IMG/VR virus record: IMGVR_UViG_3300037227_000009
Coordinates: 1-32,147 of that record
DNA length: 32,147 nt
Source: a virus
Reading direction: 5' to 3' (one strand)
The position numbers and the translations under genes are program-made. The notes under the pieces were generated by a model that did no database searches, was not told the origin of the DNA, and worked only from the letters and a program-made list of their open reading frames with translations. Each line of letters opens with the position of its first letter. Positions within the stretch are counted from its first letter, which is position 1. Shown here piece by piece: positions 30,146-32,147 of the stretch.

Positions 30146-30171
30146 CTCGCGGTTTAAACATCGCCTATAAT
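30146..30171 (+). promoter_or_regulatory. Promoter P1 of the CTCGCA-N14-TATAAT family
   Basis: CTCGCG at 30146 is followed after 14 bases by TATAAT (30166-30171) and GAGACC. It lies between the holin-like gene and the 95-residue gene at 30198. No TTGACA-like box is present at the usual place. Five further copies with identical spacing follow downstream. Confidence 0.8.
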
Positions 30172-30197
30172 GAGACCACCTATGAAAAGGAGAAAGC

Positions 30198-30485
30198 ATG
30201 TTCACTAAGAAGACCCTGCATGAACCGTCAAGACTTGAGAAAGTTATCGACGACTTGCTCAGCGAGATGAACTCGGTAATGAGTGATACCGAAGAGTATT
30301 CAAAGATGGCGGACCAACTAGTCAAGCTTTATGCCCTAAGGGATGGAGATCGCCCTAAAGGAATAAGTCCTGACACGATGGCCATCATCGCTGGAAACCT
30401 CCTCGGAATTCTGATCATCGTCGGATTCGAGCGAGCAAATGTCGTGACTTCGAAAGCCCTGAGTTTTGTGCTCAAACTTCGATGA
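30198..30485 (+). CDS. Small conserved actinophage protein
   Basis: The 95-residue product starts MFTKKTLHEPSRLEKVIDDLL and has a helical, acidic first half (VMSDTEEYSKMADQLVKLYALRDGDRP). The second half reads ISPDTMAIIAGNLLGILIIVGFERANVVTSKAL, with one membrane-like segment. I recall close relatives in many actinophage genomes near the start of the non-structural region; their function is unknown. AAAAGGAG precedes the ATG, and promoter P1 lies 27 bases upstream of it, so this is the first gene of its own transcript. A strong hairpin follows at 30517. Confidence 0.7.
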   Translation: MFTKKTLHEPSRLEKVIDDLLSEMNSVMSDTEEYSKMADQLVKLYALRDGDRPKGISPDTMAIIAGNLLGILIIVGFERANVVTSKALSFVLKLR

Positions 30486-30516
30486 AGTGCTGATCACTTG
30501 AAAGGAAGATCAAATG

Positions 30517-30557
30517 TAGAGGGCGTGTGAGAACTAAACACTCTTGCACGCCCTCTA
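30517..30557 (+). terminator. Strong hairpin terminator
   Basis: TAGAGGGCGTG (30517-30527) pairs perfectly with CACGCCCTCTA (30547-30557), an 11-bp stem with a 19-base loop, followed by TGTTTGCTCC. The T-run is short, but the stem is strong and the place, after the 30198 gene and before promoter P2, fits termination. Just upstream AAAGGA is followed by ATG TAG (30514-30519), a start-stop pair. Confidence 0.75.
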
Positions 30558-30601
30558 TGTTTGCTCCTCACTTTACAAGGGTTCTAATTTTTGCCTAACA
30601 T

Positions 30602-30627
30602 ATCGCAGGATTTACATGGTATATAAT
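30602..30627 (+). promoter_or_regulatory. Promoter P2 of the CTCGCA-N14-TATAAT family
   Basis: ATCGCA (30602) is followed after 14 bases by TATAAT (30622-30627) and GAGACC. The spacer (GGATTTACAT...) is nearly that of P3. It lies 37 bases upstream of the 47-residue ORF at 30664. Confidence 0.8.
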
Positions 30628-30663
30628 GAGACCACAACCATATTCTACACTAAGGACCCCAAA

Positions 30664-30807
30664 ATGTTTTATACACCAATCTCCTCCTTCGTCGACCACT
30701 CCGACGTCATTGTCAACAACACACGTATGACACGACGTCAGGACCCGGCCCTCGAAGAGGAAACGAATCGATACTACCTTTGGCTTCTCGACCACGAAGA
30801 ACGCTGA
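30664..30807 (+). CDS. Small protein, unknown function
   Basis: The frame is open further upstream, but promoter P2 lies inside that extension, so the first usable ATG is 30664, preceded by AAGGA about nine bases upstream. The 47-residue product (MFYTPISSFVDHSDVIVNNT) is acidic and aromatic at the end (NRYYLWLLDHEER) with no membrane segment. It has its own promoter, which suggests early expression. Small proteins in this position often alter host functions, but nothing here shows which; no family is recognised. Confidence 0.55.
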   Translation: MFYTPISSFVDHSDVIVNNTRMTRRQDPALEEETNRYYLWLLDHEER

Positions 30808-30849
30808 ATCTCAAGAACCGACAGCCCCTAGCCAGGACTTTAGGTTTGT

Positions 30850-30875
30850 CTCGCAGGATTTACATGCCTTATAAT
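30850..30875 (+). promoter_or_regulatory. Promoter P3 of the CTCGCA-N14-TATAAT family
   Basis: CTCGCA (30850) is followed after 14 bases by TATAAT (30870-30875). It directs a short stretch without a usable ORF: the only ATG (30874) overlaps the -10 box itself. Confidence 0.8.
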
Positions 30876-30881
30876 GAATAG

Positions 30882-30958
30882 AATACCCTTAGAACAGGTA
30901 AGCAATCGACAGGCCAAAACGAACCTCGACTACTGAGGTTCCACGGCTTTCTATTTTG
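30882..30958 (+). ncRNA. Candidate small RNA from P3
   Basis: Transcription from P3 should begin about seven bases after TATAAT, near 30882, and stop after the hairpin at 30921-30941 and the T-rich tract ending near 30958, giving roughly 75 nt. No start codon with a ribosome binding site lies inside. The function is unknown; the ends are inferred. Confidence 0.45.
30921..30958 (+). terminator. Hairpin with T-rich tail
   Basis: GAACCTC (30921-30927) pairs with GAGGTTC (30935-30941) around a seven-base loop. CACGG and then a T-rich tract (CTTTCTATTTTGTTT) follow. The gap before the T-run makes it a weaker terminator than that at 31241. Confidence 0.55.
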
Positions 30959-30999
30959 TTTGCCTCAATTTTCCCGCGGAGGAAGAATTCGACTAAGGT

Positions 31000-31025
31000 C
31001 TCGCATAAATATCACGGCTTATAAT
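31000..31025 (+). promoter_or_regulatory. Promoter P4 of the CTCGCA-N14-TATAAT family
   Basis: CTCGCA (31000) is followed after 14 bases by TATAAT (31020-31025) and GGAGACC. The spacer is the most divergent of the six. It lies 28 bases before the membrane protein gene at 31054. Confidence 0.8.
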
Positions 31026-31053
31026 GGAGACCCCAACGAAAGAAAGGAACGAG

Positions 31054-31239
31054 ATGAACACCACGACATCCGTCGTCCTCATCACGCTTTCCTCTTTAAG
31101 CCTAATCGCTTCTACAACCACTCTAGCCATTGTGCTAGTTGGTTCTAGGAAGATGAAGTCTGAGATGGAAGAAGTGAAGACGAAGACGAACAACACGGTC
31201 AACAACATCAAGTTCGCTCTGGATAACCTGGAGCTCTAA
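31054..31239 (+). CDS. Small membrane-anchored coiled-coil protein
   Basis: ATG 31054 follows GAAAGGAACGAG; an in-frame ATG at 31024 overlaps the P4 -10 box and cannot be used from that promoter. The 61-residue product has one membrane segment (about 6-29, SVVLITLSSLSLIASTTTLA and after), then a basic turn (GSRKMK) and a charged helix (SEMEEVKTKTNNTVNNIKF). It has its own promoter P4 and a terminator directly after the stop, so it forms a one-gene unit. No family is recognised; a membrane-located role during infection is possible. Confidence 0.65.
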   Translation: MNTTTSVVLITLSSLSLIASTTTLAIVLVGSRKMKSEMEEVKTKTNNTVNNIKFALDNLEL

Positions 31240-31240
31240 G

Positions 31241-31269
31241 CAGGAAGCCCTAACAAGGCTTCTTGTTTT
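31241..31269 (+). terminator. Rho-independent terminator
   Basis: CAGGAAGCC (31241-31249) pairs with GGCTTCTTG (31257-31265) around CTAACAA, followed by TTTT. It lies directly after the stop of the 31054 gene and just before promoter P5. Confidence 0.8.
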
Positions 31270-31271
31270 AC

Positions 31272-31297
31272 CTCGCAAGAAAATCATGCCCTATAAT
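31272..31297 (+). promoter_or_regulatory. Promoter P5 of the CTCGCA-N14-TATAAT family
   Basis: CTCGCA (31272) is followed after 14 bases (ending CATGCCC) by TATAAT (31292-31297). It begins three bases after the T-run of the preceding terminator and drives a segment without a convincing gene. Confidence 0.8.
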
Positions 31298-31303
31298 GAA
31301 AGG

Positions 31304-31391
31304 AAACTATGGTATCTTAGATAGTAATGTCGAAGACTAATCGCGTCATAGTTATAAGGCCCGAGCAACACCAGTGACCTCCTTTCTTTTT
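31304..31391 (+). ncRNA. Candidate small RNA from P5
   Basis: The expected start is near 31304 and a T-rich tract (CCTTTCTTTTT) lies at about 31380-31391, giving about 88 nt. A 16-residue ORF (31327-31377) lacks a ribosome binding site, so an RNA product is more likely. I see no clear terminator stem here, so transcription may run on into the next unit. Confidence 0.4.
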
Positions 31392-31393
31392 GC

Positions 31394-31419
31394 CTCGCAG
31401 AAAAAACATGCCCTATAAT
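31394..31419 (+). promoter_or_regulatory. Promoter P6 of the CTCGCA-N14-TATAAT family
   Basis: CTCGCA (31394) is followed after 14 bases (ending CATGCCC, as in P5) by TATAAT (31414-31419). Again no gene follows within the next 90 bases. Confidence 0.8.
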
Positions 31420-31425
31420 AGAGAG

Positions 31426-31512
31426 ATCTATTAAACCACAACGTTTAATGCCACGCTACCCGCAGATGCAGTGACATGAAATTGAACGATTGGAAATAGG
31501 TCTTTCCTTTTT
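31426..31512 (+). ncRNA. Candidate small RNA from P6
   Basis: Transcription from P6 should begin near 31426 and end at the hairpin and T-run at 31492-31512, giving about 87 nt. It holds only a tiny ORF without a ribosome binding site. The stretch 31240-31571 therefore contains a terminator, two promoters and two putative RNAs but no protein gene that I can support. Confidence 0.45.
31492..31512 (+). terminator. Short hairpin terminator
   Basis: GGAAA (31492-31496) pairs with TTTCC (31503-31507) around six bases and is followed by five T residues. The stem is short but the T-run is immediate. Confidence 0.55.
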
Positions 31513-31571: not shown

Positions 31572-32147
31572 ATGCCTGCTGGATATCCCAAAGATCCTGC
31601 TGCTCATGCTGAGAAGATGGCTGCCCTTTCAAGAGAACGTTCCGCAGCCAAAGTCGCAAATGGTGGTCAGCCTGTCAAACGCACCTACTACAAGAAGGTG
31701 GTTCATCACAAGACGACGCCACCAACCCAAACCGTTACCACCGTCGAACGGAAGCCTAGGAAACCTGCGACCATGAAAGTTACCCAGAAGGGGACTGGGA
31801 GGACCGCGACGGTCTCTGAGAGGTCCACGGCGATCTTGGTTGGAAAACTTACTCGGGAACTTGCCGAGCGTGACAAGACCATCCAAGAACTGTCAACCGA
31901 ACTCAAAGAGGCATTGTTGAAGGGCGATAGACTCGCAGGTGGACTCGCTGATTCAGAAGGCAAACTTTCGGAGAGTAACGCGACCATACAGAATCTCGAA
32001 AACCTGCTCGACGTGGCACAAGCACGAGTTGAAGTTCTTGAGAGGCAAATGCTTCGTCTTGATTCAGATCTTCGCGAGTTGAACGACACCATCGACGAAG
32101 TCGCCGCGCAAACCCGTCTAGTTCATCGACGAAGTCGCCGCGCAAAC
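31572..32147 (+). CDS. Coiled-coil protein, cut by the window edge
   Basis: ATG 31572 follows AAGGAG by seven bases, and the frame stays open for 192 codons to the last base. The N-terminus MPAGYPKDPAAHAEKMAAL is followed by a basic, threonine- and proline-rich segment (about 35-75). A long helical coiled coil from about residue 85 (LVGKLTRELAERDKTIQELS and onward) has regular leucines. The last residues (RLVHRRSRRAN) break this pattern because a 34-base repeat unit shifts the frame, so the end may be wrong. The function is unknown; coiled-coil proteins here may be regulatory or DNA-associated. Confidence 0.6.
   Translation, partial: MPAGYPKDPAAHAEKMAALSRERSAAKVANGGQPVKRTYYKKVVHHKTTPPTQTVTTVERKPRKPATMKVTQKGTGRTATVSERSTAILVGKLTRELAERDKTIQELSTELKEALLKGDRLAGGLADSEGKLSESNATIQNLENLLDVAQARVEVLERQMLRLDSDLRELNDTIDEVAAQTRLVHRRSRRAN
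32090..32147 (+). repeat. 24-bp direct repeat at the window end
   Basis: The same 24 bases (beginning CATCGACGAAGTCG) occur at 32090-32113 and 32124-32147, 34 bases apart, and the second copy ends exactly with the window. The spacing is not a multiple of three, so the copies are read in different frames of the open gene. This may mark an assembly break at a repeat. Confidence 0.85.

Follow-up and report, generated by a model that had tools for sequence, protein, structure and literature searches.

Six promoter-like elements (P1 to P6) that carry TATAAT, lack a TTGACA box and follow one another on a single strand raise the question of which RNA polymerase reads them. The elements lie in a stretch of viral DNA of 32,147 nt, referred to here as the window. 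The pattern MTCGCR-N14-TATAAT matches the window six times, all on the + strand and at the positions claimed in the earlier note, against a mean of 0.02 matches in 100 dinucleotide shuffles; no further copies are present in the window. The "CAT-like core" described before the -10 is real and corresponds to [A/T]CA, placed 11 nt after the start of CGC in six of six elements. The reported lack of TTGACA upstream of P1 to P6 was also borne out. A TTGNCT sequence at 18 bp in P3 and P6 is at the chance level, as is the outcome of a generic promoter scan of the window (4 promoter-like sites, 3.4 expected). Taken alone, the six copies have the A at -11 and the T at -7 that are characteristic of a sigma-A -10. 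The features discussed below are collected in Table 1.

Table 1. Features of the window and of related phage loci (columns: feature, position, strand, remarks; positions without a contig or locus name refer to the window).
P1 promoter motif CTCGCG-GTTTAAACATCGCC-TATAAT	30146..30171	+	pattern match; 95-aa gene downstream
95-aa gene, phrog_5818	30198..30485	+	P1 unit; hydrophobic C-terminal stretch (by eye)
Strong hairpin, 28-nt arms	30505..30569	+	closes P1 unit; z -7.65
P2 promoter motif ATCGCA-GGATTTACATGGTA-TATAAT	30602..30627	+	pattern match
47-aa gene	30664..30807	+	P2 unit; family search without match
P3 promoter motif CTCGCA-GGATTTACATGCCT-TATAAT	30850..30875	+	pattern match
P3 RNA candidate, ~82 nt	30876..30957	+	5'/3' closing helix, inner hairpin GAACCUC..GAGGUUC, then U-run; z -2.9
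P4 promoter motif CTCGCA-TAAATATCACGGCT-TATAAT	31000..31025	+	pattern match
61-aa gene, phrog_28025	31054..31239	+	P4 unit; hydrophobic N-terminal stretch (by eye)
P5 promoter motif CTCGCA-AGAAAATCATGCCC-TATAAT	31272..31297	+	pattern match
P5 RNA candidate, ~92 nt	31298..31389	+	closing helix GAAAGGA/UCCUUUC, then U-run; z -1.55
P6 promoter motif CTCGCA-GAAAAAACATGCCC-TATAAT	31394..31419	+	pattern match
P6 RNA candidate, ~93 nt	31420..31512	+	12-bp closing helix GAGAGAUCUAUU/AAUAGGUCUUUC, then U-run; z -4.45
24-nt direct repeat	32090-32113, 32124-32147		window end
Polymerase gene	G001:855-3551	-	outside the window
Motif copy L039	G001:12745-12769	-	hairpin and U-run ~30 nt or less downstream
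Motif copy L045	G004:4005-4029	-	hairpin and U-run ~30 nt or less downstream
tRNA-like RNA	L049:1518-1605, L050:1635-1718, L066, L067, L068, L069, L070, L071, L072		behind motif; Gordonia DJ and Pepy6/Poco6 phages
tRNA-like RNA, Lactococcus phage 1706	L111:11104		closing stem and U-run, TACTATAGT just before
Three-armed RNA	L050:7707-7817, L067:7300, L074:11153, L078:11480, L077:5781		behind motif
Third conserved non-coding element	L072:4322, L073:4601, L074:2528, L075:3538, L076:2651, L077:3092, L078:2891, L070:4061		behind motif; Gordonia and Rhodococcus phages

The window, an IMG/VR fragment, comes from a phage for which a longer contig is available (G001, 57.7 kb). This contig is 99.98% identical to the last 26,876 nt of the window and extends beyond it. 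It contains 12 copies of the motif by the frame pattern and 0 on the other strand. The last nucleotides of the window fall within a direct repeat of 24 nt. G001 has this repeat too, and the assembly therefore probably broke off there. Relatives include the Gordonia cluster DJ phages (Deejayvirinae), the Rhodococcus phages Pepy6 and Poco6, and others. The tail genes are followed by a region of small genes that carries the motif and then by the replication genes.

The motif has a fixed frame, in which CA lies 11 nt and the hexamer 18 nt after the start of CGC. In 15 named relatives, CGCR-N14-TATAAT was found 140 times in forward orientation, with 0 reverse matches and 0 matches to a mirror control; a search in related genomes had been set beforehand as a test, and this result excludes occurrence at random frequency. 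The consensus over 185 distinct sites is TCGCA nn AA[A/T][A/T]ACA[C/T]G[C/T]CC TATAAT GAGACCCC. Although it lies outside the search pattern, ACA is 95-99% conserved in these sites, and the columns not imposed by the search hold about 24 bits of conservation (analyst's sum). The 185 sites show no conserved -35, and specifically no TTGACA-like box at 16-19 bp, apart from a weak T-richness at -39 to -35. Likewise, the canonical TTGAC-N16-19-TANNNT is absent from the forward strand of AlainaMarie, where 2.3 matches are expected.

A weight matrix built from the 185 sites detects 6 to 13 forward copies and at most 1 reverse copy per phage in phages of Arthrobacter (Circum, Gordon, Linda), Streptomyces (Kardashian, Moozy, Scarif), Curtobacterium, Microbacterium and Bifidobacterium. 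In Lactococcus phage 1706, 6 copies were found by the weight matrix, and 7 forward, 0 reverse and 0 mirror matches by the relaxed pattern. The hosts of the phages that bear the motif are Gordonia, Rhodococcus, Arthrobacter, Streptomyces, Curtobacterium, Microbacterium, Bifidobacterium and Lactococcus, to which Faecalibacterium is added by a form with CTTTAT. Most genomes contain 4 to 15 copies, almost only on the coding strand. In IMG/VR, at least 119 stretches have the correct spacing, compared with 3 for a control pattern with one spacer 1 nt shorter; most of the motif-bearing records are phylogenetically non-independent. Judged from these alignments and counts, the motif is a lineage-wide signal, of single orientation, in phages of Actinobacteria and Firmicutes.

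The hexamer varies much more than the rest of the frame. When sites were located by CGC and ACA only, a TANNNT hexamer that fits the sigma-A -10 was found in 115 of 117 sites of the Gordonia DJ phages and in 27 of 28 sites of the Rhodococcus phages, whereas only 6 of 12 copies in Kardashian and 2 of 5 in Pippin15 have A at -11. The Faecalibacterium phage FP_oengus has the form CGCG-AAAAA-nn-CA-n5-CTTTAT-G (11 forward, 0 reverse, 0 mirror), with CTTTAT in 10 of 11 copies, T at -11 in all 11 and A at -11 in none. Patterns based on TATAAT gave zero matches in this phage, which had been considered as a counter-example (polymerase without motif) and was dropped as such after a motif-free k-mer search had found the CTTTAT form; CA is in register there, although the search did not ask for it. 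Upstream of the polymerase gene in IMG/VR contigs, the same frame carries TATAAT, TTTTAT (7 copies), TGTAAT, TATTAT or CTTTAT, and TTAGAT occurs among the variants of other relatives. The motif family as a whole does not keep the A at -11 and T at -7 of sigma-A promoters. Because the spacing of CGC and CA is invariant and the hexamer is replaceable, the reader appears to travel with the phage and not with the host. The proposal in the earlier note that CTCGCA is read by something other than an ordinary polymerase is well supported by this retention of the frame, but not of the hexamer, across host phyla; over the three options that it offered (a phage-modified polymerase, an activator or an unusual host sigma region), the data favour a polymerase encoded by the phage itself.

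Such a polymerase is encoded by these phages. AlainaMarie gp91, a protein of 900 aa recorded as "hypothetical protein", scores 1304 bits against phrog_4291 "RNA-dependent RNA polymerase" and shows weak similarity to helix-turn-helix domains close to both ends; its homologues are annotated as "hypothetical" or "HTH protein". The sequence SGADFDGD, the metal-binding signature of two-barrel RNA polymerases (compare PMC5467207), is invariant across 30 homologues. A PDB sequence search gave nothing useful, but a fold search succeeded: the predicted structure (mean pLDDT 80) has QDE-1 as its best match (Foldseek E 1.9e-7; VIA-align Z 12.1, 338 residues aligned, 4.2 A), and the phage gp64 RNA polymerase is next (Z 10.7). 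With a double-psi-barrel fold and a DxDGD motif, gp91 is, on the basis of its structural model, a single-chain two-barrel RNA polymerase of the QDE-1/YonO type, for which DNA-dependent RNA synthesis is predicted.

Homologues of gp91 are present in 250 of 50,697 phage records. The polymerase is encoded in 25 of the 26 motif contigs longer than 40 kb; the 26th, of 46 kb (G021), may lack it because it is a fragment. Fifteen of 16 polymerase records match the relaxed motif pattern, and the 16th is FP_oengus. A motif copy lies upstream of the polymerase gene in 32 of 65 loci, mostly at a distance of 0.88-1.07 kb (reverse control 2, mirror 0). Of the genes that recur from Gordonia DJ through to Lactococcus 1706, only the polymerase has a function in transcription. 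A primase-polymerase, a helicase, a Cas4-like nuclease and the AlainaMarie proteins gp56 and gp92, both of unknown function, are as widely conserved. The polymerase gene accompanies the motif independently of the host, a co-occurrence that is confounded by common ancestry and does not set the polymerase apart from the lineage's other core genes. In GenBank, the 1706 homologue is labelled "structural protein", which suggests that it is packaged in the virion. The sequence LxHYGxxRxSGRYPWGSG is nearly invariant at the polymerase N-terminus from Gordonia to Lactococcus phages (residues 8-26 of AlainaMarie gp91) and could be a virion-targeting tag.

Other readers have to be weighed against this polymerase. 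The main rival is a host polymerase helped by an activator: host sigma-A polymerase would use TATAAT as its -10, and a phage activator or sigma-appropriating protein, comparable to T4 MotA at -30, would read CGC..CA in place of a -35. The intact TATAAT of most lineages agrees with such a mechanism, which explains the perfect hexamers of the Gordonia phages; CGC at about -30 is where a MotA-type factor would bind, and gp56 or gp92, as conserved core proteins, could be the motif reader instead of the polymerase. The mechanism is nonetheless unlikely, as it does not explain the CTTTAT and TTTTAT found elsewhere, which a sigma-A -10 should not tolerate any more than the TGTAAT and TTAGAT of several lineages. 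A scan of 30 AlainaMarie proteins, the larger or unassigned ones, gave no sigma or activator family, MotA/AsiA-like proteins included, and the same phages bring a polymerase of their own.

Actinobacterial promoters often have no clear -35, which counts in favour of the interpretation published for the cluster DJ motif, namely that host sigma-A polymerase acts alone on strong promoters with an optimised spacer. The TATAAT -10 and the precedent of the reports on Vardy, Conley and Pherobrine/Burley point the same way. This reading is quite improbable for the motif family, however, since the frame is retained in Lactococcus and Faecalibacterium phages, the constrained sequence far exceeds the need of a sigma-A promoter, and the -10 diverges in some lineages. 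Least credible, and very improbable, is that the motif serves chiefly as a repeated site for regulation or recombination (repressor, stoperator, cassette exchange) and contains TATAAT by coincidence. The contents of the units differ between related genomes, as if they were exchangeable one-gene cassettes bounded by the motif; but its orientation is strict, a ribosome-binding site and a start codon follow within 85 nt in 217 of 260 motif units (43 are without), and the phages are lytic, with no reported repressor or integrase gene (PMC9671010, PMC9753669).

It is considered fairly probable, from comparative sequence evidence, that the six elements are promoter copies of the phage-encoded single-chain two-barrel RNA polymerase of the QDE-1/YonO type. 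The polymerase would read a fixed frame of about 30 nt, with CGC[A/G] at about -30, CA at about -19/-18 and a T/A-rich hexamer immediately in front of the start. The CA would sit one helical turn beyond CGC, with both read on one helical face, and the polymerase would melt the hexamer, which is usually TATAAT but in some lineages departs from a sigma-A -10. Each copy would start a short, mostly one-gene transcript, giving small, mainly hydrophobic proteins or small RNAs in which the 5' end is paired to the 3' end before a U-run. Virions would probably carry this polymerase and inject it, and in that case the central cassettes would be early genes. The near-universal perfect sigma-A -10 in Gordonia and Rhodococcus phages speaks against recognition by this polymerase, as does the transcription of late genes by YonO (PMC5467207), compared with the apparently early cassettes here.

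The units behind the six elements are of two kinds, as had been noticed earlier. P1, P2 and P4 precede open reading frames of 95, 47 and 61 codons, and no open reading frame with a ribosome-binding site follows P3, P5 or P6, the best one behind P5 having 16 codons. The P1 gene is related to AlainaMarie gp37 and to genes in Circum, Kardashian, Moozy and BitterVaud1. The hairpin that closes the P1 unit is likely a terminator or processing element. At 30490-30569, AAAGGAAGATCAA ATG TAG places a ribosome-binding site and a start codon directly before a stop, leading into this hairpin. The idea of terminators between the units held in part: a generic terminator scan of the window gave nothing above chance, whereas the P1 hairpin and the U-runs that follow the end-closed helices of P3, P5 and P6 agree with it. 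The anti-host island suggested in the earlier note stays conjectural.

In the predicted folds of P3, P5 and P6, the 5'-most bases are paired with those just before the U-run, at which the 3' ends were chosen by the analyst. The mean probabilities of end pairing are 0.65 (P3), 0.75 (P5) and 0.90 (P6), and were matched by 1, 3 and 0 of 100 shuffles, respectively. With a longer 3' end, P3 folds preferentially into another structure. ARAGORN and Rfam detected no tRNA or known RNA family in the window, and the Rfam matches were at chance. According to these folds, P3, P5 and P6 look like small RNAs with paired ends before a U-run, as the earlier note had supposed; the structural support extends to P3 and P6 and is weaker for P5.

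The units in comparable positions of relatives also seem, by sequence comparison, to hold RNAs that look conserved, and P3, P5 and P6 are not visibly members of their tRNA-like or three-armed families. A closing stem was found in 19 of 43 non-coding units, against a mean of 11.4 and a maximum of 17 in 200 swap controls; the excess is modest because the 5' ends of the units share GAGA, and such a stem is therefore not claimed for every unit. The pair counts that follow are based on few, related sequences. The tRNA-like RNA has an intact D-arm and T-arm, a short tetraloop (GCAA, GAAA, others) in place of the anticodon loop, and a 5' end that pairs with the 3' end in front of a U-run. It shows two-sided changes in 7 of 16 predicted pairs, scores 31.5 bits with Rfam tRNA and is annotated "tRNA-OTHER" in Poco6; ARAGORN did not detect it in the loci scanned. 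An identity as Y-RNA or Ro-like RNA was considered and rejected, with no such match in Rfam and no Ro protein among the proteins scanned. The same type of unit is found in a Firmicutes phage, Lactococcus 1706.

The three-armed RNA has three similar hairpin arms per genome, with a loop that differs between genomes, and two-sided changes in 17 of 36 pairs; it could be a multivalent decoy. The third conserved element (GUAGGUGAAA..CCUAC core) has weak covariation and no Rfam match in the loci tested (L073, L078). Covariation is weak in RNA family F2 (4 of 25 pairs). The motif copies L039 and L045 would be promoters whose product is either a tiny RNA or a transcript that is attenuated.

A wider reading is put forward tentatively and is quite possible: the motif would be the cognate promoter that a polymerase of the QDE-1/YonO type, borne in the virion, uses in a lineage of phages that infect Actinobacteria and Firmicutes, and would serve an injected early programme of one-gene cassettes, some of which would make end-closed RNAs, including tRNA mimics with a tetraloop for the anticodon loop. 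The motif provides a precise candidate, with hundreds of natural copies, for the promoter question left open for YonO-type polymerases (PMC5467207), and a set of unreported candidate phage small RNAs is opened up. Gordonia cluster DJ and Arthrobacter AM/AU phages in teaching collections offer a cultivable system. If the polymerase reads the motif, the YonO-type promoter question can be reduced to a one-day in vitro test, a protein so far annotated as "hypothetical" or "HTH protein" can be given a role in about 250 phage genomes, and a host-independent promoter of 30 nt with a single-chain polymerase becomes a possible expression tool for actinobacteria.

Promoters of the T4 middle class have a MotA box at about -30, no -35 and TATAAT at -10. 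The present motif shares this geometry, whereas its -10 changes in some lineages and the scan of AlainaMarie proteins gave no relative of MotA or AsiA. An intergenic motif of 50 bp (43 bp) has been published for Gordonia cluster DJ phages (Vardy, PMC9671010; Conley, PMC10868162; Pherobrine/Burley, PMC9753669). Like the window motif, it lies in the central region between genes, contains TATAAT and precedes the same small membrane-protein genes. The reports describe 5 copies, read TATAAT as a sigma-70 -10 and link the motif to genes only. By the present pattern Vardy has 8 copies, and the identity of the two motifs rests on this match and on the text of the paper. Compared with those reports, the motif is found here in phages of two phyla, its hexamer is replaceable, a polymerase is proposed as its reader and some copies would drive candidate RNAs. 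No paper tying the motif to a polymerase was found in a literature search outside of which many subscription papers lie.

YonO of the Bacillus prophage SPbeta is a single-chain DNA-dependent RNA polymerase that transcribes late genes and for which the promoter sequence was left open (PMC5467207); it shares the double-psi-barrel core, and its late transcripts differ from the apparent early cassettes described here. To the virion RNA polymerases (N4, crAss phi14:2, P23-45 gp96), the only counterpart here is the GenBank label of the 1706 homologue. The Thermus phage P23-45 has two-barrel polymerases, gp96 and gp64, with AT-rich and GC-rich promoter motifs (PMC10770324). Both systems have a QDE-1-like single-chain phage polymerase and repeated phage-specific motifs tied to it by genome location. 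They differ in the motif, in the polymerase subfamily and in the tail-tape fusion, which is absent here, and the present link is comparative, whereas that of P23-45 comes with ChIP-seq and start sites. P23-45 is thus a precedent for two-barrel phage polymerases that have motifs of their own.
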